This document shows positions 5,525 to 41,781 of a DNA stretch of 64,000 nucleotides, one piece after another. Location: NCBI RefSeq assembly GCF_014489595.1, contig NZ_CP060790.1:2418001-2482000 (forward strand). The letters are read 5' to 3'. Positions within the stretch are counted from its first letter, which is position 1. Each line of letters starts with the position of its first letter. Both the position numbers and the translations under genes were made by a program. This DNA comes from Paenacidovorax monticola. GTDB lineage: Bacteria; Pseudomonadota; Gammaproteobacteria; Burkholderiales; Burkholderiaceae_C. Under the pieces are notes generated by a model, which worked only from the letters and a program-made list of their open reading frames with translations, was not told the DNA's origin and searched no databases.

Positions 5525-6403
5525 ATGCCCAGCTCCCGCCCACCCCTCCATGCACACCTCCATCGGCGCATTTCCCCACCCCGGGCCTCCCACTGGCGCT
5601 GGGCGGCCGCATGGCTCGCCACCTTCGGCCCGGCCGTCGCACAGGCCGACGTGGTGGTGACGGCCCACTCCCAGTACTTCCGGGACTGGACGTTCTCCGA
5701 AGTCCCGCTGCGCGCCGGCACCATCGCCGCGGCGACCCCTGTGTCGGGCACCCTGGGAAGCCGCACCTTCACCATCGTGGGCACAGCAGGCACCACGCCC
5801 GCGCTGAGCCGCTTCCAGGCAGGTTGGTCCTCCACGTTCCTGGGCTCCACGAACCTCCCCGCCGACATCGGCCTCCCCTCCGCCATCACCACCCTGTGGG
5901 AGGTCTCCAAGGGCGAACTGGTCTACACCTTCTCCGCACCGCTGCCCAGCGGCACGACGCTGTTCAGCCACGACTTCGACAGCGGCGAATCCGTCGAGTA
6001 CCGCTTCTATCGCTGCGACGGCTCGCAGGTGGACGCCAGCGGCTTTGAATTCCTGCGCATCGCCAATCCCGGCGGCACGCCCAGCACCGTGAGCCGCCCC
6101 GCAGCAGGCGCCGCGGACTCGGTCTGGCGCATCGCCGCCAGCGACGCCACCACCGGCGACACCACCTCGGGACTGATCTTCCGCAGCAGCCAGGTGTGCA
6201 GGATCAAGACCTTCAGCAACACACTGGCTGGCGCCGGAACCGTGGACTTCCTCCTGGGCATGCCCCCTCCGCCACGCCCAGGAGCGGCCCAGGCCGTGCC
6301 AGCGTTGGGCGCACCGGCGCTCGCCCTGCTGGGCGCGGGCCTGGCCGGGCTCGCGGGATGGCGCAGGCGGCGGGCCCCACATGCCGCGCCTGCACGCCCC
6401 TGA
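5525..6403 (+). CDS. Exported protein of unknown function with a CTERM-like C-terminal sorting signal
   Basis: I do not recognise the family of the body of this 292-residue protein. An arginine-rich N-terminus and hydrophobic stretch ending AVAQA-D (about residues 27-41) look like a signal peptide. The C-terminus carries VPALGAPALALLGAGLAGLA followed by GWRRRR: a short proline motif, a single membrane helix and an arginine cluster. This is the architecture of PEP-CTERM and IPTL-CTERM sorting signals, which are read by exosortase-like enzymes. The middle is Thr/Ser/Gly-rich and probably beta-structured, with two cysteines (YRCDG and QVCRI) that could pair. An AAGG about 9 bases upstream supports the ATG at 5525. 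No exosortase gene is in the window. Confidence 0.6.
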   Translation: MPSSRPPLHAHLHRRISPPRASHWRWAAAWLATFGPAVAQADVVVTAHSQYFRDWTFSEVPLRAGTIAAATPVSGTLGSRTFTIVGTAGTTPALSRFQAGWSSTFLGSTNLPADIGLPSAITTLWEVSKGELVYTFSAPLPSGTTLFSHDFDSGESVEYRFYRCDGSQVDASGFEFLRIANPGGTPSTVSRPAAGAADSVWRIAASDATTGDTTSGLIFRSSQVCRIKTFSNTLAGAGTVDFLLGMPPPPRPGAAQAVPALGAPALALLGAGLAGLAGWRRRRAPHAAPARP

Positions 6404-6437
6404 GCCCCTTCAGGACGGGAGGGCCCCGGGCAGCACC

Positions 6438-6443
6438 TACAAT
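6438..6443 (+). promoter_or_regulatory. Putative -10 element of the tRNA-Arg gene
   Basis: TACAAT lies 10 bases before the mature tRNA 5' end, the spacing expected for a tRNA promoter. I found no convincing -35 hexamer at the usual distance, so this rests on the -10 match and position alone. Confidence 0.45.
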
Positions 6444-6453
6444 ACCGCGCGTC

Positions 6454-6528
6454 CTCCTCGTAGTTCAATGGATAGAACGAGTGCCTCCTAAGCGCTAGAT
6501 ACAGGTTCGATTCCTGTCGAGGGGACCA
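6454..6528 (+). tRNA. tRNA-Arg, anticodon CCT (reads AGG)
   Basis: A full cloverleaf can be folded. The acceptor stem is CTCCTCG with CGAGGGG, one G-U pair included. The D arm is GTTC/GAAC. The anticodon stem is AGTGC/GCGCT around loop CTCCTAA, giving anticodon CCT. The T arm is ACAGG TTCGATT CCTGT. Discriminator A and an encoded CCA end at 6528. The 75-base length is normal for tRNA-Arg(CCU). This tRNA reads a rare arginine codon and its 3' end is a frequent integration site in bacteria, but no integrase or att-like duplication follows here. Confidence 0.95.
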
Positions 6529-6640
6529 CCCAGTCGCCCGATCCCCCCGGTCTCCGCAGAGGAGGCGCGACCCAGCGGGCCCCCTGCGCCATCCGCAAGA
6601 CGGCCTGCACTGGGTTTGCATCAAGGCTGGGCGTTTTCGC

Positions 6641-6688
6641 CTTGCAGCGCCTACCCCATGGGCGCCAGCAGCTACGTTTTCAATAGCA
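6641..6688 (+). repeat. Dispersed intergenic repeat, copy 1 (GC hairpin plus AT-rich AGCTA...TAGCA palindrome)
   Basis: A GC-rich inverted repeat around CCATGG (GGCGC motifs on both sides) is followed by AGCAGCTACGTTTTCAATAGCA, an imperfect AT-rich palindrome (AGCTA and TAGCA ends). The same two-part design occurs at 24521-24564, 45665-45704 and 49641-49685. It sits between the tRNA and the DUF2946 gene. The layout resembles a repeat I associate with Comamonadaceae genomes. Function unknown. Confidence 0.55.
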
Positions 6689-6713
6689 TCCAGGCCGCCG
6701 CCGCCAGGCGCGG

Positions 6714-6719
6714 CATAAT
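6714..6719 (+). promoter_or_regulatory. Putative -10 element (CATAAT) before the DUF2946 gene
   Basis: CATAAT ends 8 bases before the ATG at 6728. If it is the -10 box, the transcript would have almost no leader. No clear -35 is visible. Confidence 0.3.
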
Positions 6720-6727
6720 CGCGCCCC

Positions 6728-7090
6728 ATGACCGCCCTGCCCCGTTCCCTGTCCGCGCTGCGCCTGTGGGTGCTCGCGTGGTTCGTGGCGTGGGTGGGAG
6801 TGGGCATTGCCTCGCCGCTGGTGAACCCGCAGGCCATGGAGCTGGTCTGCTCCAGCGCCGGCATGGTCAAGCTCTACGTGCAGACCGACGACGGCCCCGT
6901 GGAGCTGGGCGCCTCGGGCATGGACTGCCCCCTGTGCGTGCCCTCGGCCGCCCCGCCGCCCGCCGTGGCGCTCACCGTGCCCGCCGCGCAGCCGCTGGGG
7001 TATGTGCTGCAGTCCATTCCGGCCGCGCGCCTGGCGGCCGCCACGGCCGCGCCGCTGCCCGCGCGCGGGCCGCCGCTCTTCACCCTCTGA
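6728..7090 (+). CDS. DUF2946 family protein, probable exported metal-related small protein
   Basis: A protein of 120 residues. An N-terminal hydrophobic segment (LWVLAWFVAWVGVGIASPLV) forms a signal or anchor. It is followed by ELVCSSAG and the family's signature MDCPLC, the cysteine pair typical of DUF2946 proteins. A Pro/Ala-rich tail follows. Family function is not established. These proteins are repeatedly found beside TonB-dependent receptors and copper or iron genes, and the two genes downstream here (TonB receptor, PepSY protein) fit that. The cysteines could bind a metal such as copper, but that is inference. The start is set by the ATG just after the CATAAT box. Confidence 0.75.
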   Translation: MTALPRSLSALRLWVLAWFVAWVGVGIASPLVNPQAMELVCSSAGMVKLYVQTDDGPVELGASGMDCPLCVPSAAPPPAVALTVPAAQPLGYVLQSIPAARLAAATAAPLPARGPPLFTL

Positions 7091-7203
7091 CCCTGCTTCG
7101 CCCGCCCATGGCGCGCCGCTCGGCGCCCGCCGTGGGCGCCCGGCCCGCCCGCGCGGGCCCGCCATCCGCCACGCGCGGGTGGCCGTCAGAGTGTGTTTTC
7201 GCC

Positions 7204-9419
7204 ATGTCTTTCCTTGCTCCGTCCGCCACGCCCGCGGCACGCGCCGCCGTACCACCGCTGCTTCCGTCCCCCTGTGCCTGGCCCTCTCGGCCGCGCTCGC
7301 CGCCCTGGCCCTGCCGGCCCATGCCCAGGAGTCCACGCTGGCCCCCGTCACGGTGTCGGCCACGGCCGATGCGCCGGCCGGGCCCCTGCTGCTCGACACG
7401 CGCACCGAAACCGCGAGCCGCCTGGGCCTCACGCCGCGCGAGACGCCGGCCTCCGTCACCGTGGTGGACCGTGCCACCATCGAGGCACGCGGCGCGCGCA
7501 CCACGCAGGAGGCGCTGCAGGCAATTCCCGGCATCACGGCGCACGACGCGCCGGGCAACATCGGCGTGAGCTACCGTGGCTTCGGCAGCGGCTCGCTGAA
7601 CCAGTTGTTCAACGGCATCAACGTGCAGTACGCCATCGCCGCGCGCCCCGTGGACAGCTGGATCTACGACCGCGTCGAGGCCATCGGCGGACCGTCGAGC
7701 TTCCTCTACGGCGCGGGCGGCGTGGGCGGCACGATCAACTACATCACCAAGACCGCCGAGCGCCACGATTTCACCGAGGCGCGCGCGCGCCTGGGCAGCC
7801 GGGGCCTCAAGGAGGTGTCGCTGGGCCTCAACCGCCGCATCGCCGGCGAGGCCCGTGGCGCTGGGCCCGCGCACTTCGTGCGCATCGACCTCAACCACCG
7901 CGACGGCGGAGACTGGACCGAGGGCACGCACTCGCAGGCCACGCAGCTCGCGGCCTCGCTGCTGTCCGACCTGGGCGGCGGACTGACCCACCTGCTGGCC
8001 TACGAGGCCCAGCACGAGCGCGTGGACCGCCCCTACTGGGGCACGCCGCTGCTCAACCCCTTCACCACGGGCACGCTCGCGATCGACCCCGGCACGCGGC
8101 GCAAGAACTACAACAGCGCCGACGGCCTGTACGCACAGCGCGTGCAGTGGCTGCGGTCGGTGGCCGAATGGCAGGCCTCGGGCACGCTGCGGCTGCGCAA
8201 CACCTTCTACGCCTACGATGCGCTGCGCGACTACCGCAACGTCGAGACCTACCGCTTCACGCTCGACAACGCACAGGTGGTGCGCTCCTCGGCCTTGCTG
8301 CAGCGGCACGACCAACGCCTCGTGGGCGACCGCGTCGAGGCCCTGGTGCAAGGCACTCTTGCGGGCCGGCGCAGCGACTGGGCTCTGGGCCTGGACGTGA
8401 GCGTGAACCGGCAGACGCGCTTTCCCAACAGCCTCTCCGGCACCGTCAGCACGGTGGACCCGTACCACTACCAGGTCGAAGACTTCTTCAGCATCCCCGG
8501 CATGGCGCCGGGCTTCCATCCCGACAAGGACAACGAGGTGCGCACCGTGGCGCTCACGGTGGAGAACCGCACCGCGCTCGCTCCCGCGCTGCACCTGGTC
8601 TCGGCGCTGCGGCACGAGGCCATCGACCTCGACCTCACCAACCGCCGCGCCGTCACGGCGGCGGCCCCCGCGGGCTTCTCGCGCAGCTACCACCCGACCA
8701 CGGGCCGCCTGGGCCTGGTGTGGGACGTGGCGCCCGGCGCCAACCTCTACGCGCAGTACGCCACGGCCGCCGATCCGCCATCGGGCGTGCTCACCACGGC
8801 CTCTTTCGCCGACGTGCGCACCAACAGCGAACTCACCACGGGCCGCCAGGCCGAACTGGGCGCCAAGCTCGACTTCTGGCAGGGCAAGGGCAACGCCACC
8901 TTCGCGCTCTACGACATCCGCCGCAGGAACATCGCCACGCAGGACCCGTCCAACAGCGCCGTGACGCTGCTCGTGGGCGAACAGTCGGCACGCGGCGCCG
9001 AGATCGCCGTGGGCCTGCGCCCCGCGCCGCGCTGGAGCGTGCAGGCCAATCTGACGCATGTGCGTGCCCGCTACGAGAACTTCGTGCAAGGCGGCGTCTC
9101 GCTTGCGGGCAAGACACCCACCAACACGCCCGCCACCGTGACCAACCTCTGGGTCGGCTACGCGCTCACGCCCACGCTGCAGGCCAGCGCGGGCCTGCGC
9201 CACGTGGGCCGCGTGTACGCCAACGCGGCCAACACCGCGCAGTGGCCCGCCTACACGCTGCTGGACCTGGGCCTGTCCTGGAAGATCACGCCCGGCGCCA
9301 CGCTCACGGGCCGCATCCGCAACGCCACCGACCGCACCTACGCCGCCACCGTGGCCAGCACCCAGGCCTACCTGGGCGCGCCACGCAGCGTGGACGTGGC
9401 GCTGCACGTGGCCTTCTGA
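7204..9419 (+). CDS. TonB-dependent outer-membrane receptor (siderophore/metal type); probable frameshift near 7232
   Basis: Protein of about 738 residues. The signal peptide ends LALPAHAQ, followed by TLAPVTVSATA, a likely TonB-box region. A plug domain comes next (ASVTVVDRATIEARG, QEALQAIPGIT, RVEAIGGPSSFLYGAGG) and then a 22-strand-type barrel ending with Phe (DVALHVAF). Family role: energy-dependent uptake of ferric siderophores or similar ligands. The plug is close to the FpvA/FoxA-like siderophore group, but the ligand cannot be read from sequence. The ATG at 7204 is one frame away from the signal peptide. One more C in the CCC at 7231-7233 would join them (giving ...SATPRGTRRRTTA...). 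The alternative is a GTG at 7191 already in frame. The gene is likely cotranscribed with the PepSY gene 11 bases downstream. Confidence 0.88.
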
Positions 9420-19648: not shown

Positions 19649-20053
19649 CTACAGCGCGGCTTCGATCAGCGGCATGGCCATGCGCGCCTTGGTCAGCGCC
19701 ATGCCCAGGTTGGCCGTACGGCGGCACACGAACACGGCCACGTACTCGGGGTGGGTCTTGCCGCGCAGGAACACGTGGATCAGGTTGTCACTGTTGATGA
19801 TGATTTCCTGGAAGTAGTGATGGCCGTCGTCCTGCAGGCCGCGCGACTTCTTGAACAGGCGCTCGATCATCGACACGTTGGGGCCGTTGAACAGGTCGGC
19901 CGTGGCGGCGGCCACGAGGTCGATGACCTCGCGCGGGTGCGAATCCACGGTCTTGATGGACAGCAGCATGCCCGATGCGGCATCCACATAGCCCGCGGCC
20001 ACGCATTCGGGGACCGTCGATGCGGCCTGGTTGAGTACGGCGTCCAAACTCAT
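19649..20053 (-). CDS. Small roadblock/LC7-like protein of unknown function
   Basis: A 134-residue soluble protein without signal or membrane segment. The order of elements (N-terminal helix, GYVDAASGMLLSIKT hairpin, long helix DLVAAATADLFNG, then EIIINSDNLIHVFLRG and YVAVFVCRRTANLGMAL strands) is what one expects for a roadblock/LC7 fold. These small proteins often bind and modulate NTPases. The family assignment is by pattern, not by a decisive motif. It lies 32 bases after the ABC-ATPase/phosphatase fusion and before arsC on the same strand, so it may be a partner of the fusion protein. Confidence 0.6.
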   Translation of the reverse strand: MSLDAVLNQAASTVPECVAAGYVDAASGMLLSIKTVDSHPREVIDLVAAATADLFNGPNVSMIERLFKKSRGLQDDGHHYFQEIIINSDNLIHVFLRGKTHPEYVAVFVCRRTANLGMALTKARMAMPLIEAAL

Positions 20054-20085: not shown

Positions 20086-21420
20086 TCAAACAATCTTCAG
20101 GAGGATCGCGTCCTCGTAGCGCTGCAGGAATGCTTCCTGCTCGGCGCTCTGCACATAGTCGGGATCGATGAGGCGCACGCGGCGCAGCGCCTCGGTGGCC
20201 GTGAGGCCCTCGCGCACCAGCCAGGCCGCGAGCACCGTGCCCGTGCGCCCCAGGCCCGCGAGGCAATGCACGGCCAGCACCTCGCCCTTGCGCAGCAGCA
20301 GTTCCATGCGCAGCAGCAACATCTGGATCTGCGCCACGGTGGGCGGCTCGCGGTCGCGCACGGGCAAGTGCAGGTTGGCCAGGCCGTGTCGGCCGAGCGC
20401 ATCCTGCGGTAGGTCGCGCTCGGTCAGCGTGATGAGGGTGGTGACGCCGCACTGGCGCAGCGCGGCCAGGTCGTGGTCGATGCCGTTCACAGCACCCGGC
20501 AGCGGCGTGCCCGCGATGCGGCCCGGCTCCAGCCAGGCGAAGCCGCGCGGGCCACGGCTCGCGGGTACGGCGGCGCCTGCGCCAGCAGGGGCCTGCGCAA
20601 GCGCGGCCAGCGCCGCATCGGGCAACGGCGGCGGCACGGGGGCATCGTCGGCCAGCGTGGCGGGATCGGCGTCGGGCGCGGGCAGCGCGCAGCTGCCCGT
20701 GCGGACGAACTGCTGGCCCGCGGCCGACTGCGGTGCGACGAGGAAGTCCTCCATGCCGCCAGCCTCCTGGATGCGCCCTCCAGCCAGCAACAGCATGTGC
20801 CGCGCGGCCATGCGCGCATGCTTCTGGCTGTGCACCACGAGCAGCACGGCCGAGCGCTGCGCGATGCGGCGCAGCAGGTCGAGCAGCAGGTAGGCGTCGT
20901 AGTCGTTCAGGCCGGCCGTGGGCTCGTCCACCAGGAGCAGCGCGGGCTCGGCCGCCGCCTCGCGCAGGATGGCCACGGCGCGCTGCTGCACGGTGGTGAG
21001 TTCCAGGGTAGGCCGCTCCAGCAGAGGCGCCAGCTCGGGAAAGCCCATGGCCGCCACGTGCTCGGCGCACCAGGCACGCAGCGCGCCAGGCGCCAGCCCC
21101 AGGCGCGGCCGCGCGTGCTCGACCAGCGCGTCGCCGGTGGAGGCCATCATGAGCCGTGCGTTCTGCTGCACCAGGCGCGGGCGGTGCGCGCCCGCCAGCG
21201 GCTGCCCGAGGTACTCCACCTGGCCCCAGGCACGGAAGCGCGGATTGGCGTCGTGCAGGCCTGCCAGCATGCGCAGCAGCGTGGATTTGCCGCCCCCCGC
21301 AGGGCCGAGCAGCGCCGTCACGGCGCCGGCCTTCACCGCGAAATCGAGCGAGGCGAGGACGACCTTCTCCCCAAAGGCGGCGCCCAGGCCCTCGGCCCGC
21401 AGGCAATGCAGCAGCTCCAT
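20086..21420 (-). CDS. ABC-type ATPase fused to a C-terminal dual-specificity/tyrosine phosphatase domain
   Basis: A 444-residue protein with an unusual domain pairing. Residues 1 to about 225 form an ABC ATPase: Walker A G39-PAGGGKST47, Q-loop region RLVQQNARLM, Walker B LLLVDEPTAGL and switch histidine VVHSQKH. The general look is closest to PstB-like phosphate ATPases. The ABC signature (normally LSGGQ) is altered to LTTVQ. An Ala/Pro-rich linker at about residues 230-290 follows. The remainder is a phosphatase: the P-loop is H385-C386-LAGLG-R392-TG, and a likely general acid is Asp356 in PVRDREPP. No permease is adjacent. The next two genes, a roadblock-like protein and ArsC, follow closely. 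The function is unknown. Coupling of ATP-driven conformational change to protein or phosphoester dephosphorylation is inference. Confidence 0.85.
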   Translation of the reverse strand: MELLHCLRAEGLGAAFGEKVVLASLDFAVKAGAVTALLGPAGGGKSTLLRMLAGLHDANPRFRAWGQVEYLGQPLAGAHRPRLVQQNARLMMASTGDALVEHARPRLGLAPGALRAWCAEHVAAMGFPELAPLLERPTLELTTVQQRAVAILREAAAEPALLLVDEPTAGLNDYDAYLLLDLLRRIAQRSAVLLVVHSQKHARMAARHMLLLAGGRIQEAGGMEDFLVAPQSAAGQQFVRTGSCALPAPDADPATLADDAPVPPPLPDAALAALAQAPAGAGAAVPASRGPRGFAWLEPGRIAGTPLPGAVNGIDHDLAALRQCGVTTLITLTERDLPQDALGRHGLANLHLPVRDREPPTVAQIQMLLLRMELLLRKGEVLAVHCLAGLGRTGTVLAAWLVREGLTATEALRRVRLIDPDYVQSAEQEAFLQRYEDAILLKIV

Positions 21421-21673: not shown

Positions 21674-23313
21674 TCAGCGCTGGCCGGCGCGCAGCGTGCG
21701 GCTGAGCAGCACCACCGGCACCAGGCCCACCGCCACCAGGGCCAGCGAGGGCAGCGCGGCCTCGCCCAGGCGCTCGTCGCGCGCGAGCTGGTAGGCCACC
21801 ACGGCCAGGGTATCGCTGTTGAAGGGGCGCAGCACCATGGTGGCGGGCAACTCCTTCATCACATCCACGAAGACCAGCAGCGCCGCCGCGGCCGTGGAGC
21901 GCCGCAGCAGCGGCCAGTGCACGCGCGCCATCAGGCCCGCGCCACTCGCGCCCAGCATGCGCGCCGAGTCGTCGAGGCTGGCGGGGATGCGCGCATAGCC
22001 GCTCTGCACCGACTGCAGCGCCACAGCGCAAAAGCGCACCAGGTAGGCCCACACAATGCCCGTGGCCGTGGCCGTGACGAGCGCACCCACGCTCAGCGTG
22101 GGCGCCGCCGCCTGCAGCCAGCCGACGGGCAGCAGCAGGCCCACGACGATCACCGCGCCCGGCACGGCATAGCCCACGCTGGCCAGTTGCACCACGCCAC
22201 GCGTGAAGGCATCGGCCCGGCGCCGCACGGCGAAGGCCAGCGCCAGCGCAATGGCCACGGCCAGCAGCGAGGTGATGGCCCCCAGGCGGACGCTGTTGCC
22301 CGCCCAGTCCAGAAAGCGCTCCCAGGGCAGCACCGACCAGTCGGCCGCCAGGGGACGCAGCATGAAGGCCACGGGCGCGAAGAAGCCCATCAGCACGGGC
22401 AGCAGGCACAGGCACCACGCGGCGGCGCAGCGCCAGCCCGCCAGGCGCTGCGGCTGCGCCTCGGCGGAGCCCGCACGGCCCGCACTGGTGCCGGCGAAGC
22501 GCATGCGCTGCTGCGCGCGCTGCTCCAGCTTGAGCAGCAGCAGCACCAGGGCCAGCAGGATGGTGGCAAGCTGGGCCGCGGCCAGCCGGTTGTCCATGGA
22601 CAGCCAGGCCTTGTAGATGCCGGTGGTGAAGGTCTGGATGCCGAAGTAGCTCACCACGCCGAAGTCGGCCAGCGTCTCCATGAGCACCAGGGCCACGCCC
22701 GCCGCCACGGCGGGCCGCGCCAGCGGCAGCGCCACGGTGCGCACGCGGCGCGCCAGCGGCGCACCCATGAGGCGCGCGGCCTCCATGAGGTGGGCGGCGC
22801 GCTCGCCCAGCGCCGTGCGCGCCAGCAGGTACACGTAGGGGTAGAGCGAGAAGATGAACACCCACACGGCACCGCCCAGGCTGCGCACCTCGGGCAGCAG
22901 CCGGCCCTCCAGCCCGAAGGTGGCGCGCAGCCACACCTGCAGCGGTCCGCTGAACTGCAGGAAGTCGGTATAGGCGTAGGCCGTCACATAGGCCGGCATG
23001 GCCAGGGGCAGCAACAGCAGCCATTCCATGGTGCGCCGGCCAGGAAAGTCGAACAGCGTCACCGCCGCGGCCGTGGCCATGCCCACGGCCGCGGCGCCCA
23101 GTGCGACGAACAGCCCCAGCCACAGCGTGGTCCACAGGTAGCCGGGCAGCACGGTAGAGGCCATCTCGCGCAGGATGGCGCCCGCCTGCGCACCGCCCTG
23201 CCCCAGGGCAGCCACGACGCGAGCACGGCCAGCACCGGCAGCGACAGCGCGCCGGCAAGCAGGATCAGGGGAAGGGCACGGACGGCGATGGATGGGCGGC
23301 GCAAGGCGGGCAA
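21674..23313 (-). CDS. fbpB: Ferric-iron ABC transporter permease (FbpB-like); frameshift at 23206-23208
   Basis: About 546 residues when corrected, with roughly twelve membrane helices in two halves, as in FbpB/SfuB permeases. Each half has an EAA-type loop: EAARLMGAPLARRV in the first, and DDSARMLGASGAGLM in the second. The N-terminal helix (ALPLILLAGALSLPVLAVL) is in another frame from the rest. Adding one base at the GGG of 23206-23208 (plus strand) gives ...SWLPLGQGGAQAGAILREM and restores one frame. The start is uncertain: no ATG lies in the right place, and TTG 23313 is used. It diverges from the ATPase gene across a Fur-like palindrome. No periplasmic binding protein gene is visible, so it must be encoded elsewhere. 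Confidence 0.85.
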
Positions 23314-23387
23314 TCGATTGGACGGGAGGAAGCACACCGGCCCCGCCCTGCCATGACGCAGGCTGGAAATACAGGCGCCCAGAAATG

Positions 23388-23410
23388 CAAATGCGAATTC
23401 TAAGCATTTG
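23388..23410. promoter_or_regulatory. Fur-like palindromic operator between fbpB and fbpC
   Basis: A perfect 7-base inverted repeat, CAAATGC and GCATTTG, flanks GAATTCTAA. The whole region AAATGCAAATGCGAATTC is AT-rich in a GC-rich setting and resembles betaproteobacterial Fur boxes (repeats of the NAT(A/T)AT/GCGAAT type). It lies between two divergent iron-transport genes, where a shared iron-responsive operator would be expected. Recognition is by eye. Confidence 0.5.
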
Positions 23411-23418
23411 GACCACCC

Positions 23419-23424
23419 TACAAT
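23419..23424 (+). promoter_or_regulatory. Putative -10 element (TACAAT) of fbpC
   Basis: TACAAT ends 7 bases before the ATG at 23432. If used, the transcript would be almost leaderless. It lies directly beside the Fur-like palindrome, so a repressor bound there would block it. Confidence 0.35.
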
Positions 23425-23431
23425 CCAGGGC

Positions 23432-24495
<1,064 letters not shown>

Positions 24496-30596: not shown

Positions 30597-32066
30597 ATGG
30601 AGCCATCCGTTCCCGTGGGGCTGGTCTGGTTCCGGCGCGACCTGCGCGCCAGCGACCATGCCGCCCTGTACCACGCCCTGCGCGAATGCGCGCAGGTGCA
30701 CTGCGTCTTCGTGTTCGACACGGAGATCCTGACGAACCTGCCCCGCGCCGACATGCGCGTGGAGTTCATCCGCGAGTCGCTCGTGCAGCTCGACGAGGCC
30801 CTGCGCGCGCTTGCGGGCTGCGCCGAGGCCGGCCTGATCGTGCGCCACGGCCTGGCGAGCGACGAGGTGCCACGCCTGGCCGAAGCCCTGGGTGCCCAGG
30901 CCGTCTACGCCAACCACGACGACGAACCCCAGGCCCTGGCACGCGATGCGCGCGTGCGCACGGCGCTGGCCGGAGCGGGCCGCAGGCTGCACACCTTCAA
31001 GGACCATGTGGTGTTCGAGCGCAGCGAAGTGCTGACACAGTCCGGCGCGCCCTACAGCGTGTTCACGCCCTACAAGGCCGCCTGGCTGCGCAAGCTGGAG
31101 CCGTTTTACCTGACCGCCTACCCCACCGAGCGCCACGCGCACCGCCTGGCCCGCCGGCCGCCCGGCGAACGGCGCCCGGTTCCCGCGCTCGATGCCCTGG
31201 GGTTCCTCCCCACGCGGCTTTCCAGCCTGCGCATGCCGCCGGGCCTGCATGGCGCGCAGCAGTTGCTCGACGAGTTCCTCACACGCATCGACCAGTACCA
31301 CACGGCCCGCGACTACCCGGCAGTGAAGGGCCCCAGCTACCTGAGCGCCCACCTGCGCTTCGGCACGCTGTCGCCGCGCCTCGCGGCGGGGCTGGCGCAG
31401 CAACTGAGCCTGGCGGGCCAGCCCGGGGCCGCCACCTGGCTCAGCGAGCTGGTCTGGCGCGACTTCTACGTCCAGATCCTCGCGCACCACCCGCATGTGG
31501 CCACGCGCAGCTTCAAGCCCGCCTACGATGCGATCTCGTGGGAGTCCGGCCCCCGCGCCGAAGCACTGTTCCTGGCCTGGTGCGAGGGCCGCACCGGCTA
31601 CCCTCTGGTCGACGCGGCCATGGCCCAGCTCAACCAGACGGGCTACATGCACAACCGCCTGCGCATGGTCACGGCCAGTTTTCTGGTGAAGGACCTGGGC
31701 ATCGACTGGCGCTGGGGCGAACGCTACTTCGCCGAGAAACTCACCGACTACGATCTGGCCGCCAACAACGGCGGCTGGCAATGGGCCAGCTCCAGCGGCT
31801 GCGATGCCCAACCCTACTTCCGCATCTTCAATCCGGTCACCCAGAGCGAGAAGTTCGACCCTGAGGGGCGCTTCATCCGCCGCTACCTGCCGGCGCTCGC
31901 GGCACTGCCAGGGCCCGCCGTGCATGCGCCCTGGCGGGCCCGGCCGCTGGATCTGGCCGAGGCAGGCATTACCCTGGGCCGGGACTATCCACTCCCCCTC
32001 GTGGACCACGACGCAGCCCGGCAGCGCACGCTGGAGCGCTATGCCGTGGTGCGCGCCCCAGGCTAG
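30597..32066 (+). CDS. phrB: Deoxyribodipyrimidine photolyase (class I CPD photolyase/cryptochrome family)
   Basis: A 489-residue protein. The N-terminal antenna-binding Rossmann domain starts LVWFRRDLRASDHAAL. The C-terminal FAD domain has WLSELVWRDFY, GRTGYPLVDAAMAQL, GYMHNRLRMV, the tryptophan-rich NNGGWQWASSSG and RIFNPVTQSEKFDP. These are the conserved flavin and lesion-binding elements of bacterial photolyases that split cyclobutane pyrimidine dimers with light. Length matches the E. coli enzyme (472). Starts 22 bases from the divergent yqgE and overlaps the convergent pilU end by 4 bases. Confidence 0.95.
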   Translation: MEPSVPVGLVWFRRDLRASDHAALYHALRECAQVHCVFVFDTEILTNLPRADMRVEFIRESLVQLDEALRALAGCAEAGLIVRHGLASDEVPRLAEALGAQAVYANHDDEPQALARDARVRTALAGAGRRLHTFKDHVVFERSEVLTQSGAPYSVFTPYKAAWLRKLEPFYLTAYPTERHAHRLARRPPGERRPVPALDALGFLPTRLSSLRMPPGLHGAQQLLDEFLTRIDQYHTARDYPAVKGPSYLSAHLRFGTLSPRLAAGLAQQLSLAGQPGAATWLSELVWRDFYVQILAHHPHVATRSFKPAYDAISWESGPRAEALFLAWCEGRTGYPLVDAAMAQLNQTGYMHNRLRMVTASFLVKDLGIDWRWGERYFAEKLTDYDLAANNGGWQWASSSGCDAQPYFRIFNPVTQSEKFDPEGRFIRRYLPALAALPGPAVHAPWRARPLDLAEAGITLGRDYPLPLVDHDAARQRTLERYAVVRAPG

Positions 32067-33196
32067 CCCGCATCGCCCCCCTCCTCCGCGCTCGCGCCAT
32101 GGCGGGCATTCGCCGTCAGGCGCATGCGCAGCGTGAGGTCGGTTCGGCTGTCGGCATGGGCAATGGCCTCGGCCGCGCTGATCGCCCCCGACTCCTGCAG
32201 GGCATACAGCGATTGATCGAAGCTGCCCATGCCGGGCTCGCCGCCGCGCCGGATCGCGGTCCGCAACTCGTCCACCTGCCCCTTCTGGATGAGGTCGGCC
32301 ACGTAGGGGGTCTGCAGCATCACCTCGGTGGCCGGCACCAGCAAGCCGCGCACACCCACCACCAGCCGCAGCGCCACGACGGCCCGCAGGTTCAACGACA
32401 GGTCCATGAGCAGTTGCTGGCGCGCGGTCTCCGGAAAGAAATTGAGGATGCGCTGGATCGCCTGGCTGGCGTTGGCGGCGTGCAGCGTGGACAGGCACAG
32501 ATGCCCCGACTCGGCGTAGTGCATGGCGTGCTGCATGGTCACGCGGTCGCGGATCTCGCCGATCAGGATGACGTTGGGCGCTTCGCGCATGGCGTGGCGC
32601 AGGGCATCGTCGTAGGACAGCGTGTCGAACCCCACCTCGCGCTGCGTCACCAGCGAGCGCTTGTGTACGTGCAGGTACTCGATCGGGTCTTCGATGGTCA
32701 GGATATGGCCTGCCGCCGTCTGGTTGCGGTGGTCCAGCATGGAGGCGATGGTGGTCGTCTTGCCGGAGCCTGCGGCCCCCACCGCGAGCACCAGCCCGTT
32801 CTGCAGCATGGCCAGTTGCCGCAGCACCGGGGGCAGCCCCAGCGCGTCCAGGGAGGCCACCGCCGACGGCACATGCCGGGCCACCAGCCCGACCTGGCCC
32901 CGGTGCACCATGAGGTTCATGCGAAAACGCCCCACGCCCGGCGCATCGAACGCAAGATCGCATTCCTTCTGCGCCTCGAACTGTGCCACCTGGACGGGCT
33001 GCAGCACGGAGTAGGCCAGTTCGCGCACCTGCTGCGCCGCGAGAGGCGCCTGAGTGATCGGAACGAAGGCGCCCTGGCGCTTGATGGTGGGTGGCGCTCC
33101 GGCCAGCAGGAACAGGTCGGATGCGCCTTCGCGCACCATCACGGCCAGGCAGGACAGCAGGCGATCGTCGCCGGCAGGTGTTGCTGAAGAGTCCAT
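32063..33196 (-). CDS. pilU: PilT/PilU-type twitching motility ATPase (probably PilU)
   Basis: A 377-residue hexameric-ATPase-family protein. The Walker A at residues 140-148 is GAAGSGKTT, with Ala-Ala where PilT/PilU usually have Pro-Thr/Ser. The Asp box (TIEDPIEYLH), Walker B (VILIGEIRDRVTM) and His box (CLSTLHAANASQAIQR) are intact. Length fits PilU (about 380) better than PilT (about 345). Role: accessory retraction ATPase of type IV pili at the inner membrane. A GGAGGAGG ribosome site precedes the ATG. It lies 78 bases after chpA on the same strand, closing the pil-chp cluster. Confidence 0.88.
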   Translation of the reverse strand: MDSSATPAGDDRLLSCLAVMVREGASDLFLLAGAPPTIKRQGAFVPITQAPLAAQQVRELAYSVLQPVQVAQFEAQKECDLAFDAPGVGRFRMNLMVHRGQVGLVARHVPSAVASLDALGLPPVLRQLAMLQNGLVLAVGAAGSGKTTTIASMLDHRNQTAAGHILTIEDPIEYLHVHKRSLVTQREVGFDTLSYDDALRHAMREAPNVILIGEIRDRVTMQHAMHYAESGHLCLSTLHAANASQAIQRILNFFPETARQQLLMDLSLNLRAVVALRLVVGVRGLLVPATEVMLQTPYVADLIQKGQVDELRTAIRRGGEPGMGSFDQSLYALQESGAISAAEAIAHADSRTDLTLRMRLTANARHGASAEEGGDAG

Positions 33197-33274
33197 GTCA
33201 GCCTCCTCCGTCGCGCCCCCAAAAGGGCGCCCAACCCCACCCGCGCGCCCGGCACGGTGGCCGGGCCCGGGTGC

Positions 33275-36200
33275 TTAAGCGTCGGCCATCGCCGCGGCCT
33301 TGGCCGCGTAGTGCTGAACCAGGCTCAGCAGCTCTTCGTCCGAGTAGGGCTTGCCCAGGTAGTGGTTCACGCCCAGCTCCAGCGCATGCTCGCGGTGCTT
33401 TTCGGCGATCCGAGAGGTGATCATGATGATAGGCAGATCGTGCAGGGCTGCGTCGCCCCGGATGTTGCGCGCCAGGTCGAAGCCGTCCATGCGCGGCATC
33501 TCGATGTCGGACAGCACCACCGTCGGACGCTCTTCCTGCAGCCGCTCCAGGGCCTGCAGCCCATCGGCGGCCAATGCCACGCGGTAGCCTTCGCGCTGCA
33601 GCAAACGCTGCGTCACGCGGCGCACCGTGATGGAATCGTCCACCACCAGCACCAGCGGCACCTGGCTGGCAGCCGACAGACCCGGCGTGGGCGCCTGGGC
33701 CGCAGACGATGCCTCGGGCGTGGAGTCCAGTGCCACGGGCAGGCGGCTACCCTGCGCGCGGATCTGGTCGCCGTACACCGTGGCCAGGGCCACCGGGTTG
33801 TAGACCAGCACCACGGCGCCCGATGCCAGCACCGACATGCCCGCCAGACCCGGCAGGCGCGAGAGCTGCGGCCCCAGGTTCTTCACCACGACTTCCTGGT
33901 TGCCCAGCACTTCGTCCACGTGCATGGCCATGCGCTGCGAGGCGCTGCGGAAGATCACCACGGGCCGCGTCTTGCCGGCGGCTTCGACGCTGCGCGGCGA
34001 GGCCTGCAGCAGCGAGCCGGACCAGAAGAAGGGCAGCAACTCGGTGCCGTCATGGAACTGGCCCGTGCGGTACGCCTCTTCCAGCTCGGAGGCCGTGGTG
34101 CGGCGCACGATCTCGACCAGGTTGGCGGGCACGCCCACCGACAGGTCGCCAGCCCGCAGCATCACCACCTGGGTCACGGCGGTGGTCAGGGGGAGCACCA
34201 TGCGGAACGAGGTGCCCTGACCCGCCTCGGTGGTGGTTTCGATCCGCCCCCCGAGCGCGTTCACCTCGGAGCGCACCACGTCCATGCCGATGCCCCGGCC
34301 CGCCAGGCCGGTCACCTCGGTGGCGGTAGAGAAGCCGGGCATGAAGACCAGCTGGGCGGCCTCAGCGTTGCCGATCTCGGCATCCGCCGCGATCAACCCC
34401 TGGGCCACGGCCTTGGCGCGAATGCGCTCCAGGTTCAGACCGGCGCCGTCGTCGCGGAACTCCACCGAAACGTCGTTGCCTTCGTGGCGCAGGGCCACGG
34501 TGATGGTGCCGATCGCGGGCTTGCCGTGGGCCTGGCGTTCCTCGGGCGTCTCGATGCCGTGGGCCACACAGTTGCGCAGCAGGTGTTCGAAGGCCGGCGT
34601 CATGCGGTCGAGCACGCCGCGGTCCATTTCGATCGTGCCGCCGGAGATGTCGAGCTTGATCTGCTTGCCCGTCTCCTTGGAGGACTGGCGCACCACGGCA
34701 TAGAGACGTTCTGCAATGCCCTCGAACTCCACCATGCGCGTGCGCAGCAGGTCGCGCTGCAGCTCGCGGGCCTGGCGGCCCTGCGCGATGAGGTCGTCCT
34801 CGGCGCCTTCCATCGCGCGCTGCAGGTTGCGCTGCACCGTGGCCACGTCGTTCACCGACTCGGCCATCATGCGCGTGAGCTCCTGCACCCGCGTGAAACG
34901 GTCGAATTCGAGCGGATCGAAGCCCGCGGCGGAATCCTTGGACAGCGCCAGGCGCGACTGCATCTGCGTTTCGGCCTGCACCTCGATATCGCGCAGCTGC
35001 TGGCGCAGGCGGTCCAGGTTGCCCGACAGGTCGAGCAACGAGCCCTTGACCTGCGTCATGCGTGCATCGAGGCGCGAGCGCGCGATCATCACCTCGCCAG
35101 CCTGGTTGACCAGGCGGTCCAGCAATTGCGCGCGCACCCGCACCGACTGGTTGGCCGCCGTGCGCAGTGGCACCAGCTGCGAAGCCGCCGGCAGGCGCAC
35201 CGCGGGCTGGGCCAGGGGTGCCGCCACGCTGGCGGGCGCGGCGGGCTCGCCGTCGGCCGACGGCGCCTGCGCAGCGGGCGCGATGGGCACCACGACGGGC
35301 TCCGCAGCCCCTTGGGCACCAATCGTGCGCAGGGCGTCGAAACTGGCCTGCAAGCCGTCGAAGCTGGCGAGCAGCGGCTCGATCTTGTCGGAGGTCAGGT
35401 CGTCCGTTCCGGTCTGCTCGACGGCCGACTCCAGGCGGTGCGCCATCTCGCCCAGGCGCATGGCGCCGGCCAGCCGCGAACTGCCCTTGAGCGTGTGCAG
35501 GGCGCGCAGCACCTCGCTGCGCGCGCCCAGGTTCTCGGGCCGCGCAGCCCACTGCCGCAGGGCACCGCCCAGCGAGGGCAGCAGTTCGATGGCCTCTTCC
35601 TCGAAGATCGGGAACAGGTCCGGGTCGATGACGTCGAAGGCGTCGATGTCATCGTCGATATCGCTGCCCAGCGCTACCGCATGGGCAATGGCATCATCCA
35701 CACGCTGATCCGTGTCATGCACCAACGAGAGCGCCGGGGCCACGGGCCCGCGCGGCACTGCGGGCGCGGTAACGGCGTCTTCGCCTGGGGCCGCATCGGC
35801 GGACATGCCGTCCAGCGCCTCTTCGTCTTCGCTCTCCAGCGGCGTCAGGCCGCTGCTGACTTCCGTCTGCAGGATCTGGCGCAGTTCGTCGAGGATCTGC
35901 GGATTCGGCTCCTTCAGGAAGCCTGCCGCGAACTGGTGCAACAGCCGGCGCACGTCGTCCGCCGCCGCCATGAAGGTCTGCGCCTGCGACGCAAGGCCGC
36001 GCGGCTGCAGCTGCACATGCTGCAGCGCGTGCTCCAGCGTGCGCGCCATTTCGGACAGCGCCTCGAAGCCCACGGTCGCCGAACTGCCTGCCAGCGAGTG
36101 CGCCAGCGCCACTGCCGTGTCGGGCAGCGGCTCATGGAGTTCCAACGACCATTCCTGCAGCGACGTCACCAGACGGCGCGACCATTCGTCGGCCTCATTC

Positions 36201-39200
36201 AGGTACACGTTGTACAGCGGGATGCCGATACGCAGCGTTTCGATGACCTTGACGGCCTCGTCGGACGGCACATCCACCAGCGGCTCGGCCACCGCCGGCT
36301 CGGGCTCTGCGACCGGGAGTTCTTCGGCGGGCGCCGCAGCTTCTGCCTCTGGCTCGGCCTCGGCCAGCACGGGTTCGGGCTCCGGCTCGACCCACTCCGG
36401 CGCCGGAGCAGGCTCCTCTTCTGCCACAGGAGCCACAGGCTCTGCCTGCACGGCCTCTTCCAGCACGAACTCGTCGGGCCAGTCCAGTTCGGAAGGCTGC
36501 GGCACTTCGGCCGCAGGAGCAGCGGCCTCGGCCACCGGTGCAACTTCAGCCGCGAGGTCGGGTTCGGGCGTCCAGTCCATCGCCGTCGCGTCCAGTTCGG
36601 CAGGCGGCGACGCCTCGGCCGCTTCAGCTTCCGGCACGGATACCGCCAAGGCCTCGGAGAACACCGAGAAGTCGATGTCCTCTTCCACTTCGGGCAGCAC
36701 GATGTCGATGGCGGGCGCCGGCTCGGGCAGATGCTCGGACACCTCGGTCACGGCAAAGTCGAGCTCGGGCACCAGCGGAGGCGCGGCATCGTCCTCGGGG
36801 AACGACAGCGGCGGAATCTCGGGCGGGCTGGAGGCCAGATCGTCGGCCAGCAGGGCTTCGAGCGCGGGCGCCTCGTCGGGCACGGGCGGCAGGGGTTCGG
36901 GCGCGGCCTCGGCCGGGACCTCGGCCTCCGCCATGGCAGGCTGCAGTGCTGGCGAAGCCACAGGCTCGCTTCCCGGCAGGACCAGGGGCACACGCTCGCC
37001 CTGCAGGCGCATCGCATCAGCGGCCGTGCGGAATGGCGCGGGCTGCCAGTCGCTGGCATCGCCCTGCGCAATGGCGTCCGACCACTGGCTGAAACCACGC
37101 AGCGCCTCGCCCGCCAGCGCAAGCATCGCCGGCGGCATGGGCTTCTGCTCGGCCAGCCATGCGTTGAGCATCTGCTCCATGGCCCAGCCGGCTTCGCCGA
37201 AGTCGTTGAGCCCGACCATACGGGAGCTGCCCTTCAGCGTGTGGAAGGCACGGCGCAGCGTGGTCTGCTCGCTCAGGTCGCCCGGCTCCTTGCCCAGCAT
37301 GTCGATGGCGGCCAGTCCATTGACCACCACTTCGCGCGCCTCTTCCAGGAAGATGTCGAGCAACTCGTCCTCGGCTTCTTCCTCGGACGCGGGCAGCGGA
37401 CTGGGGGCGGGGGCCGGCTCGGCCACGGCCTCGGGGGCGGGCTCCGGCACGGCGGCGGGGGCCTCGTCGAAGGACAGGTCCGTCAGCAGCGCCTGCAGCT
37501 CGGGCGCGGGGGCGGGCTCCAGCGGCGGCGGAGCAACCGGCGTGGCGGGCGCAACGGCAGCGGCGGGCGCATGCCGCGGCACGGTGTCGGGCAGCGGCAC
37601 GGGCGCACGCTCTTCCAGCTTGGAGGGAATCTCCTCAACGCTGTCGGAGGCCCGCGAGCGGGTGCGCCCCATCAGGATGCGCAGTTCTCCCAGCTCCTCG
37701 TCGTACACGAACAGCTTGCGGGCCATGGCGCGCTGGTAGCTGAGCATGTCGATCAGGAAGCCCAGGGCCCCAGGCTGTTGCCAAGTTTCTCGAATGCGGG
37801 CTGGCGCTCCGGCTCGGGAATTTCGTTGATCAGCAGGCGCTCCACCGTGTCGCGCATGCGCATGACGGCCAGGGACGCCTGGTCCAGGCCCAGCACCGAC
37901 AGCACGCCGCGCATCTGCGCCAGGTGGCCCGGCACGGGTGCGAGGACGGACACATCGGCGGGATTGCGGAAGAACTGGTCGAGCGACTTTTCCGCCTCGG
38001 CCAGCGTGGCACGCAGTTCATCCACCACGCTGCCCATGGTCTGGTGGTCGCTGACGCGGCGGTACAGCTCCTCCATCCAGGGTTCCAGCGGCGAGGGCTC
38101 GGCCCCCCCAGCACCTGGTCGAGCCGTTCGGCCAGACGGCCGGCCCGCTCGACCATGCTGTCGTCGGCCGAGTCCAGTTCCTCGAACGTGGCCTGCAGGT
38201 ACAGCACCGAGGTGGCCACTTCCATGGCCAGCGCCGCGGAGGGCGGCTCGCCCGAGCGGGTCGTGGACTCCAGCGCCCGCGTCAGGGCCTGCGCGAGCTG
38301 GTCGCTGCCGGGGTGCAGCTTGGTCAGCGAGTCGCAGACCAGGCTGAACTGGTCTGCGGCCGGCTTGAGCTTGTTGCGGTCGCCGCCCGCGAGCGCCGAC
38401 CAGGTCTCGGTGGCAGCGGCGATGCGCTTGCGCGCCTGGGCCAGCAGGGCGGGATCGAACCGGCCAAAGCGCGCGGTTTCGTAGTCCACGGGCCGGAAGC
38501 GCCCCAGGTTGAAGGTGTCGCGCACGGCGCGCAGCGTCGCGGTGTTCGCGTCGTTCCCCGGCGCCGGCTGGGCCTGGGCGCAGAAGAACAGCAGATCCTG
38601 CACAAGGCGGTCCGACAGCGACTCGTCGCCCTTGGCCAGGGCCGCGTACTGCAGCAACACCCGCGAAGCGACCCGCTTGACGTAGACATCCGACGGCAGC
38701 AGGCGCTGGGCCATGGCTTCGAAGAAGCCCGCCGCAATCTTCCAGAAGGCGCGGACCGGGCGCTGCGTCTGGGCGGCGACGAAGCCCAGGCAGGTGTCGC
38801 GCATCTCGGCGGCGGCCACGGGGTCCGCCGACTTGACGATGCGCAGCACTGCGCTGTCCAGGCGGGCCCGCGCTTCGGCCCCATAGGGCAGCGCGGGCGC
38901 ATCTACCGCGAACTCGGGCTCGCGGAAGCGCCGCTCGGCGGGCCACAGGTCGGCCGGATGCACACGCTCCGCGCCGGCCAGCGCCTGCGCATCGCGGTAC
39001 TGCGGGAACAGGGCCACGGGCGACACCGGCTTGCCGGCGAGCACGCTCTCCAGGTATTCGATCAGGGCAAAGCTGGCGCGCTCGATGACCGCCGCCGCGT
39101 CGTCGCTGCACAGTTCGGGGCGCTGCACGAACTTCTGCACGGCCGACTCCATGGCGCGCAGCATGAGTGCCGGCGGGCCCATGCCCACCATCTCGAGCGC

Positions 39201-39431
39201 ACCGCATGCCTGGTGCAGTTGCTGGCGCGCGATGCGCAAGGGGCCGGCGTCGAGAGCGGCCAGATCCGATTCGCGGGCCAGCTCGGCATCGCGCACGAAA
39301 CGGCGCATGGCCTTGGCGGCGCCGTCCAGCGATTTGCGCAACTCATCAAGCACCCACGCCAGGGGTCCCAGGTCCTGCTCACCCTGGGACCATTCCGTGG
39401 CGGCTGCGTTTGCTGCATCAATAGATGACAT
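33275..39431 (-). CDS. chpA: ChpA/PilL hybrid chemotaxis histidine kinase; two frameshifts (38103-38109, 37768-37771)
   Basis: A giant hybrid kinase of about 2050 residues when corrected, the signalling core of the type IV pilus chemosensory system. The N-terminal helical region holds a first Hpt-like domain. Further Hpt domains have FHTLKGSSRMVGL, AHSLAGSSATVGF and LHTLKGSSRLAGAM, separated by long acidic Ala/Pro/Glu linkers. The kinase core has VNQAGEVMIARSRLD, N-box LLRNCVAHGIETPEER and GRGIGMDVVRSEVN. A CheW-like domain and a C-terminal receiver follow (LVVDDSITVRRV, Asp in VVLSDIEMPRMDG). The first break is seven G that should be eight (giving L-G-G-A-E-P-S-P). The second is four G that should be five (giving N-S-L-G-A-L-G-F-L-I-D). 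Both are homopolymer losses in otherwise continuous family sequence. Confidence 0.93.
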
Positions 39432-39498
39432 GGATTCGTCCCCAGCTGCCTACATTCTCTTGCTTCGGCTGGCCAGTTGGTTGATGGGCGCGCCCGCG

Positions 39499-41781
39499 TC
39501 AGGCGATCTTGAAACGGGCCACCGATTGGCGCAGTTCCTCGGCCATGTGCGACAGCTCGCGCACCTGCTGGGCCGTCGTACGGGTACCCTCACCGGTCTG
39601 CTCGGTCACCGCGAAAATGTGCTGGATGTTGTCCGCCACCTCGTTCGCCAGCTCGGCTTCGCGCGAGGTGGAGGAAGAGATCTGCTCAATCAGTTCGGCG
39701 AGGCGGCGCGACACGCGGTCGATCTCGGACAGCGCGGTACCGGCACTGTCGGACAGGCGGGCCCCTTCCACCACACCCTGCGTGGAGCGTTCCATGGCGG
39801 CCACGGCATCCTGTGTATCGGTCTGAATCGCCTTCACGAGCGCCGAAATCTGGCGCGTGGCGTCGGCCGAGCGTTCAGCGAGGCGCTGCACTTCTTCCGC
39901 CACCACCGAGAAGCCGCGGCCGGCTTCACCGGCCGATGCGGCCTGGATGGCGGCGTTCAGGGCCAGAACGTTGGTCTGTTCGGTAATGTCGGAAATCAGT
40001 TCCGTGATTTCACCGATCTCCTGCGACGATTCACCCAGACGCTTGATTCGCTTGGAGGTGTCCTGGATCTGGTCGCGGATGGAGTTCATGCCGCCGATGG
40101 CGTTCTGCACGGCCTTCAGACCCGAGTCGGCAGCCTGCAGCGACTGGCGCGCCACCGTGGCGGATTCCTGGGCCTGCGTGGACACCTCGTTGATTCGGGT
40201 CGCCATGTCGAGCACCGAGCGGCCCGTTTCACGGATCTCGCGCAGTTGCTCGGTCGAGGCGGCGAGCAGTTCCGTCGAGGTGCTGTCCACCTGGGCCGTC
40301 GTCTGCGCCACGCGGGTCGCCGTGTTCTGCACGCTGCCCACGAGCTGGCGCAGCTCTTCCACCGTGTAGTTCACCGAGTCGGCGATGGCGCCCGTGATGT
40401 CCTCGGTCACGGTGGCTTCCTGCGTCAGATCGCCTTCGGCGACGGACTGCAGTTCGTTCATGAGGCGCAGAATGGCCGCCTGGTTGGCGTCGTTCACGCG
40501 CTTGGCTTCCTGCTCCTGGCGCTTGGCGTCGCGCTGCTGCAATTCAGCGGCCGCCTGGCGCGTACGGCTGTCCATCAGCTGCACGCGCGAGATGCCCACG
40601 CCGCACAGCAGCACGAACAGGCCGGCAAGCGCCAGCGCCGCGAACTGCCCGGCACCCAGGCCCGTCTGAGCCGACAGCTTGGTCTGCAGGCCTTCGAGCT
40701 GGCGGCGCAGCGGCTCGCTGTCGGCAATGATGGCGGACTGCGCCTCGCGGGCCGACACCAGTCCTTGCAGGTTGCCCAGGATGGCGCTGGCCTGCGTGCG
40801 GGTCTGTTCGTACAGCTTGATCAGGGCCTCGAGCTGCTCGCGCGTCTGCCCATCCTTCGTGGCCGACAGGCGCAGCTCGGGGCTGCCGTCCAGGATGCCC
40901 TGGGCGATTTCCTTGAAGGAGTTCAAGTCCTTGCCGAGCAGGAACACGGCCTCGGGGCTCACGCCCTCGGTGGTCTGGAATTCGTTGGCGGACTTGCCGA
41001 TGCGCTGCGTCAGCATCACGAGCTGGCCCGCGGCCGAGATCTCGGCCGCAGGGGCGTTCTGCTGCAGCTTGAGCGAGGACACGGTCTCCGCGATTTCCAG
41101 CAGGTCGGACGACTGGCGGTTGATGGTGCGCAGAGCGTCTCCCACCTGGGTCAGGATCTTCTGCTGGCCCATCACCACGCTGGCGTTGCGCTCGGCGCGC
41201 TCCATCAGCTGGTTGATGGCATCGAGCTCGGGCTTGAAGGGTTCGCCCAGGGCCTGCACGCCCATGTCGCTGTCGCCGGCATTGAGCGCGCGCACGTTGC
41301 GCGCCAGCACCCCGGAGCTTTCCACCACGTCGGGGAAGGCCTGCGGACTGCCCACCAGGGCCTGCGACACCGATTTGGCAAGGCGCTGCGACTGCATCAG
41401 GGACTGGCCCGTGGCGGCCAGCTGCTGGGCAGAGCGGTCGGCCTGCTGCAGCACCCAGCCGGCAATCAGTGCCAACACCACCACGCCCACGGCCAGCAGC
41501 GCCAGCAGGCGGCGCTGGTGGGTGGCGGCCGGTGCGCGCCCCAGCAGGGGCAGGGCCACCATGTCTTCGTCCGACCCGGCCACCTCGGCGTACTGCGACA
41601 CGCCCGGGTCGCCCTGGACGCTGTTCATCGCATCGGTCTGGTAGGAGTCGCGCAGCGGCGAGCTCTCATCCAGCGCCGATGCCGCCTGCGGGCTGTGCAC
41701 ACCATCGGCAGACCCCACGTCCTCGCCTGGCTCCGCAGTCTTACGGTTGAACAGTTTTCCAAATTGATTGACGAAGGACAT
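39499..41781 (-). CDS. pilJ: PilJ, methyl-accepting chemotaxis protein of the type IV pilus system
   Basis: A 760-residue transducer with two membrane helices ([20 protein letters not shown] near residue 100 and [19 protein letters not shown] near residue 385). Between them lie two PilJ sensor modules, recognisable by repeated [12 protein letters not shown] and [18 protein letters not shown] segments. A HAMP region and a signalling domain with hairpin tip [16 protein letters not shown] follow. The long N-terminal cytoplasmic part before the first helix is typical of betaproteobacterial PilJ. It feeds ChpA kinase activity in response to surface contact or pilin state. Encoded between pilI and chpA. 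Confidence 0.93.

Follow-up and report, generated by a model that had tools for sequence, protein, structure and literature searches.

Roadblock proteins regulate Ras-like GTPases, in settings that extend from bacterial motility to the eukaryotic Ragulator. Group 3 MglA GTPases are almost exclusive to beta- and gammaproteobacteria (Wuichet and Sogaard-Andersen 2014, PMC4316618), and the passages on Group 3 in this survey describe operons that encode a REC-like/winged-helix protein, MglA, and one or two MglB proteins, name a DAR G5 motif as typical of MglA Groups 2 and 3, and offer the function of Group 3 MglA as a suggestion only. In Myxococcus xanthus, MglA and MglB act in a polarity switch (PMC7519303, PMC9481161), and MglA promotes type IV pilus formation according to passages of the former paper. 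Passages on the actinobacterial conservons (Cvn; PMC13343842) describe a roadblock protein coupled to a nucleoside triphosphatase (NTPase) in a conserved operon. Here, a 64,000-nucleotide stretch of the Paenacidovorax monticola genome (contig NZ_CP060790.1, positions 2,418,001 to 2,482,000; hereafter the window) was analyzed, in which an ATP-binding cassette (ABC) ATPase fused to a Cys-based phosphatase (the fusion) is encoded next to a small protein with a predicted roadblock fold (P2). The fusion is nearly always encoded beside a roadblock-fold protein, and no published account of such a pairing was found in a literature search restricted to open-licence papers. With a probability of roughly 55%, the pair is proposed to constitute a two-gene signalling module, an ATP-binding, roadblock-partnered phosphatase switch, perhaps for the type IV pilus or surface motility. 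The features of the pair are as follows.

20086-21420, minus strand: ABC ATPase-phosphatase fusion (P0001), ATG start, 444 aa, a single frame without internal stop
20692-21420, minus strand: ABC domain, fusion residues 1-243 (ABC_tran match, motifs, Foldseek)
21280-21306, minus strand: Walker A of the fusion
20986-21000, minus strand: degenerate signature LTTVQ of the fusion
20089-20550, minus strand: phosphatase domain, fusion residues 291-444 (Pfam, motifs, profile match)
20353-20355, minus strand: D356 codon of the fusion
20239-20268, minus strand: HCLAGLGRTG of the fusion
19649-20053, minus strand: P2 (P0002), roadblock/LC7-fold partner (fold predicted), 134 aa, starting 32 bp past the stop of the fusion

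As far as the passages cited above describe them, the Myxococcus system shares with this pair a roadblock-fold regulator and a link to the type IV pilus, whereas the NTPase encoded next to P2 is an ABC ATPase-phosphatase and not a Ras-like GTPase. The conservons share a conserved operon that couples a roadblock protein with an NTPase; they differ in their enzyme output, and no CvnA-type histidine kinase was recognised as a regular neighbour at the loci of P2 relatives.

The first-pass annotation had read this DNA as an ABC ATPase joined to a Cys-based phosphatase, and its coordinates, strand and uninterrupted frame are correct; the domain assignment is borne out by Pfam, motifs, Foldseek and profile matches. 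ABC_tran covers fusion residues 23-169 (E 3.4e-15), PTP-SAK residues 291-412 (E 4.6e-20) and Tc-R-P, the best Pfam match, residues 303-405 (E 9.2e-22); these and a DSPc match (E 3.3e-9) are above cut-off, the phosphatase-family matches span residues 291-436, and an Ala/Pro-rich linker lies between the two domains. The AlphaFold model of the fusion, computed from a 47-row alignment, has a mean predicted local distance difference test score of 93.0 and a predicted template modelling score of 0.66, the latter making it uncertain how the two domains are arranged relative to each other. When this model was submitted to Foldseek, all of the top 50 rows were ABC-type ATPase entries, with E. coli PstB first. 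By sequence profile, the C-terminal half matches the solved dual-specificity phosphatases 25xa (E 2.7e-40) and DUSP23 (2img, E 1.2e-30), with which it shares a phosphatase domain with CX5R and Asp; it differs from them in being joined to an ABC domain, the 2img and 25xa chains comprising 151 and 162 residues. Some public records of relatives are named "ATP-binding cassette domain-containing protein" or "phosphatase domain-containing putative toxin".

The Walker A and B motifs, the Q-loop and the H-loop bind and hydrolyse ATP inside one ABC domain, and the LSGGQ signature and the D-loop work across the ABC dimer. Motifs were counted in 47 hand-picked sequences, 36-80% identical to the fusion of the window; since the rows were picked among proteins and loci with both halves, the counts describe intact fusions only. 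K45, D165 and E166 of the ABC half and H385, C386, R392 and D356 of the phosphatase half are invariant (47/47), Q86 of the Q-loop and H197 of the H-loop are each found in 46, and an aromatic residue occupies position 16 in 44. At the signature, Ser occurs in six sequences, Gly at position 143 in none, Gly at 144 in four and the complete Ser-Gly-Gly in none, while Q146 (41/47) and R147 (45/47) are still kept; the D-loop Asp at 172 is present in eight. Thus, Walker A, Walker B, Q-loop and H-loop are recognisable and the LSGGQ signature and the D-loop Asp are not, and the phosphatase half has the HCX5R motif and general-acid Asp of dual-specificity/tyrosine phosphatases. All motifs named in the first-pass annotation were recovered: GPAGGGKST with K45, LLLVDEPTAGL, H197, LTTVQ in place of LSGGQ, PVRDREPP with D356, and HCLAGLGRTG with C386 and R392. 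Because the residues that serve ATP within a single domain are kept and the dimer motifs are degenerate, the conservation pattern favours an ABC domain that binds ATP but forms no canonical dimer. The suggestion of an ATP-gated phosphatase in the first-pass annotation is plausible, as judged from the catalytic residues of both halves, which are kept in 46 or 47 of the 47 homologues.

To place the pair in a wider context, one genome per species (84,980) was scanned with a P2 alignment; 108 relatives were obtained, and the best 79 of the 108 loci were analyzed. Because two short peptide patterns were used to find them, these 79 are the closest relatives and not a random sample. They come from Beta- and Gammaproteobacteria, where they cover 27 named genera and 14 named families; 16 loci lack a genus and seven lack a family name. 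Both halves of the fusion lie in one open reading frame (ORF) at 71 of the 79 loci, the N-terminal part being in another frame in L034 and L099. At these 71 loci, the fusion and P2 are invariably on the same strand, less than 120 bp apart in 69, with the fusion first in 58 and P2 first in 13. Six of the other eight loci contain pieces of the fusion (L029, L056, L057, L073, L100 and L104), and at L078, which has no fusion ORF, the contig has less than 100 bases before P2. Among other public proteins, fusions with 56-79% identity over the aligned part were found (best 120 of 1734 matches). A second fusion/P2 pair, in reversed order, is present in the genome of the window. This second copy, the public fusions and the 71 one-ORF loci show that the fusion is real, and the first-pass annotation's refuting condition, halves that are always separate genes and joined here by an assembly error, fails; a chance ORF is likewise ruled out by the second copy and by the many species that carry the fusion. 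A PAS-HAMP-MCP receptor gene (L021:10601-12247) was observed near the second pair, and the same cluster occurs at five of the 79 loci. Two copies of P2 accompany one fusion in tandem at L095, L099 and L102 and on either side of it at L037; these doubled copies could possibly form roadblock heterodimers.

Two samples not picked by linkage agree with the pairing of fusion and P2. Among 60 relatives, P2 was found in three genomes and the fusion in the same three. In 274 genomes of the class, with scoring confined to the few top first-look candidates of each genome, the P2 profile matched 18 genomes at E 1e-10, five of these below 1e-60, and the fusion profile matched 17 at 1e-40, twelve of these over the ABC half only; the five genomes with P2 below 1e-60 are the same five that have a full-length fusion below 1e-150. 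Furthermore, distances in the fusion tree and the P2 tree are correlated: across 71 pairs, after removal of the four loci that carry two P2 genes, r is 0.83, compared with a maximum of 0.18 in 999 permutations. This correlation shows joint inheritance.

The link to Group 3 MglA/MglB systems emerged when all ORFs of at least 60 aa at the 79 loci were searched with profiles. An MglA-like GTPase of Group-3-like type and a gene termed c4 occur at the same 21 loci, and a Robl_LC7-type roadblock gene occurs at these 21 and at L100, where positions 6238-7660 hold the phosphatase half, P2 and a roadblock-family protein. In this respect, the loci resemble the operons described in the Group 3 passages of PMC4316618, with c4 as a candidate counterpart of the REC-like/winged-helix protein on the basis of context and sub-threshold REC similarity; those passages do not mention an ABC-phosphatase fusion. 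The GTPase alignment contains a GKT P-loop, PGQ and D-A/G-R. Of the MglA loci, 19 have a fusion ORF, and in 18 of these the GTPase either overlaps the fusion or stops no more than 78 bp short of it, the exception being L099 with its broken fusion. The fusions of the MglA loci form a single clade, set off from the rest by a branch whose support is 100. The fullest operons (e.g., L088 and L095) run in the order c4, GTPase, fusion, P2, roadblock protein and ferredoxin/reductase protein; the one roadblock gene scanned at L088 matches Robl_LC7 at 5e-15, and the last gene of L095 encodes Fer2, FAD/NAD-binding and globin domains. This longer operon is found in two (G183 and G256) of the five fusion genomes of the class sample and is seen at L112 and L113.

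The Group-3-like MglA profile matches 46 of the 274 class genomes at 1e-10. The 13 other class genomes with a weak match to the P2 profile all have an MglA-like GTPase, less than 0.8 kb away in ten, and the order at L108 and L109 is MglA, roadblock protein and P2-like protein, with Robl_LC7 confirmed for the roadblock gene of L109. These weak matches beside MglA make it probable that the second small protein of Group 3 systems was the ancestor of P2. At L110 (positions 1705-2562), two tandem P2-like genes without an adjoining MglA follow an ORF that resembles, as read by eye, a PP2C-type phosphatase. In the window itself, a profile search of the ORFs found no c4, MglA or roadblock match, and in its genome no Group-3-like MglA GTPase was detected up to E 1 and no Robl_LC7 above cut-off, with one sub-threshold match of 22 bits. 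Hence, of the Group 3 components, the coupled MglB-like protein (P2) is present and the MglA GTPase is absent from the genome, leaving the fusion and P2 alone. What is new is a roadblock-NTPase module with an ABC-phosphatase, which stands beside a GTPase in one clade and, by gene content, apparently without a GTPase in that of the window. Given the pairing of the fusion with a roadblock-type partner, the pair resembles a new type of molecular switch.

A type IV pilus chemosensory (Pil-Chp type) cluster begins approximately 10.6 kb upstream of the fusion (32063-43111, minus strand), and its terminal gene encodes a PilT/PilU-family ATPase.

32063-33196, minus strand: PilT/PilU-family ATPase (394 bits, cut-off 319)
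33275-37747, minus strand: ChpA-like CheA
39499-41781, minus strand: PilJ-type receptor
41805-42173, minus strand: CheW/PilI-like protein
42348-42713, minus strand: single-domain response regulator 1
42713-43111, minus strand: single-domain response regulator 2

One ORF inside this cluster, of 533 aa (37830-39431), matched nothing in Pfam at 1e-4. The type IV pilus locus of the window is a possible output of the module. The genome contains four PilT-family genes above cut-off at three places, and a random point would be as close to one of them approximately 1.5% of the time, according to arithmetic done after the data had been seen. Across the 79 loci, pilT and pilU are near 14, with the fusion first in Stenotrophomonas and Frateuria and with P2 first in Hydrogenophaga, Rhodoferax and two metagenome-assembled genomes without a genus name; this linkage requires two changes on the fusion tree, in separate clades. 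In addition, chpA is near six further loci, five from Comamonas and one from Diaphorobacter. All 20 loci fall among the 58 without MglA; these pil/chp counts stand without a genome-wide random control.

In the proposed roadblock-partnered phosphatase switch, the ABC domain would act as a nucleotide-loaded switch with the roadblock protein, rather than another canonical ABC domain, as its partner; a Group-3-like MglA GTPase may be a further partner in certain species. The nucleotide or roadblock state could then expose or restrain the phosphatase of the fusion. With its full set of catalytic residues, the phosphatase may remove phosphate from a Ser/Thr/Tyr-phosphorylated target, and dephosphorylation of this target could control the type IV pilus or surface motility. 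A more specific version, in which the ABC ATPase took over the role of a Ras-like GTPase, roadblock-partnered, no longer dimerising canonically and fused to a phosphatase, and sets pilus or surface motility without MglA in lineages of the window's type, is put forward tentatively, with the odds somewhat against it.

Several observations weigh against the switch and its motility output. P2 occurs without the fusion at L090, and at L100 the phosphatase half lacks a detectable ABC half. Robl_LC7 was not matched above cut-off by P2 or the scanned relatives, and the comparison of P2 with a roadblock alignment was weak (hhalign probability 27). P2 is therefore termed roadblock-fold, a term that refers to its predicted structure, and not a Pfam-defined member; it has no Pfam or NCBIfam match above cut-off. 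The 21 MglA loci also carry a second, Pfam-type roadblock gene, and P2 may serve MglA instead of the ABC domain at these loci, while rooting of the P2 tree, with its long outgroup branch and few columns, is too weak for a choice between loss and gain of MglA. The fusion and P2 trees both contain species history, and gene neighbourhood alone is no proof that P2 binds the fusion. Finally, pilTU and chpA are absent from the available flanks of 59 of the 79 loci, all 21 MglA loci included, and the loci near pilTU or chpA also adjoin the housekeeping genes yqgE, ruvX and pyrC; motility is therefore the favoured guess for the output of the module and not a result.

The alternative that survives best, although it is rather unlikely, is a roadblock-partnered phosphatase module with a non-motility output, such as redox- or oxygen-dependent gene regulation. 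It draws on cluster 3 (ferredoxin and FAD-NAD reductase), present at 19 of the 79 loci, whose sole scanned member, from L095, adds a bacterial globin domain; on L112, where a stand-alone globin gene separates P2 from the roadblock gene; on c4, which by context fits the REC-like/winged-helix protein described in the Group 3 passages of PMC4316618; and on the PAS-MCP gene beside the second copy and at five loci. The neighbour-cluster counts (clusters 3 and 20) were obtained from ORFs picked by length and may be too low. However, the window lacks c4, MglA and Robl_LC7-type genes, no ferredoxin-globin gene was seen beside its pair, and pilTU or chpA are near 20 of the 58 MglA-free loci, with pilTU in separate clades. 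A catalytically dead ABC scaffold, with the phosphatase alone functional, would explain the degenerate signature and D-loop of the 47 sequences; this is improbable, because the Walker A Lys and the Walker B Asp and Glu (47/47) and the Q- and H-loop residues (46/47) would be needless in a pure scaffold.

The first-pass annotation was partly supported: the domain reading stood, whereas P2, the Group 3 MglA/MglB link, the type IV pilus chemosensory cluster and an adjoining permease had been overlooked. The statement that there is no permease was wrong, as the following genes demonstrate.

21674-23452, minus strand: BPD_transp_1 permease, directly upstream of the fusion on the same strand
23408-24495, plus strand: divergent ABC ATPase gene of that permease, split over two overlapping frames

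The N-terminal part of ABC_tran lies in 23408-24058 of this split gene and the C-terminal part, with LSGGQ and TOBE_2, in 23719-24495, indicating either a broken gene or a sequencing error. The fusion could accordingly be an ordinary transporter ATPase for this permease with a regulatory phosphatase tail, a reading favoured by the position of the permease, by the PstB entry in the first Foldseek row, by homologous permeases at nine of the 79 loci (within 0.6 kb upstream of the fusion in seven) and by the split ATPase of the window, whose role the fusion might conceivably have taken over. It is nevertheless quite improbable: the permease has its own divergent ATPase gene with LSGGQ, no homologous permease is found in the available flanking DNA at 70 of the 79 loci, and the two elements that a canonical ATPase dimer requires, the signature and the D-loop, have degenerated. 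The earlier judgement that ordinary transport is unlikely thus holds, on the strength of the degenerate dimer-interface motifs in the 47 homologues, and a transporter ATPase was rejected as the principal explanation on account of the motif loss and of the permease's own ATPase gene. Compared with PstB and other ABC importer ATPases, the fusion shares the ABC fold, Walker A/B and the Q and H loops, but it lacks LSGGQ, has mostly lost the D-loop Asp and carries a C-terminal phosphatase. PstB (NCBIfam TIGR00972) is its best-scoring ABC family, at 92.1 bits against a cut-off of 343.2, and with a score so far under the cut-off, the special link to phosphate that had been suggested is not upheld and PstB-like phosphate regulation was rejected as the principal explanation. 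No phosphate genes were conspicuous among the neighbour clusters inspected, and no profile search was aimed at them. Least probable is a polymorphic-toxin-type phosphatase, suggested by the best Pfam match, Tc-R-P, and by the "putative toxin" names of some public records, and rejected as the principal explanation because the ABC domain is N-terminal, the Pfam matches include no export domain, the pair is kept over 14 named families with correlated trees, and the partner P2 has a predicted roadblock fold.

If the pairing of the fusion with P2 is functional, the roadblock-partnered phosphatase switch would extend roadblock control to a different class of NTPase and would tie nucleotide switching directly to dephosphorylation. 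It would also supply a candidate effector for Group 3 MglA systems. In addition, it offers a testable idea for proteins that at present carry the name "ATP-binding cassette domain-containing protein" or the name "putative toxin".
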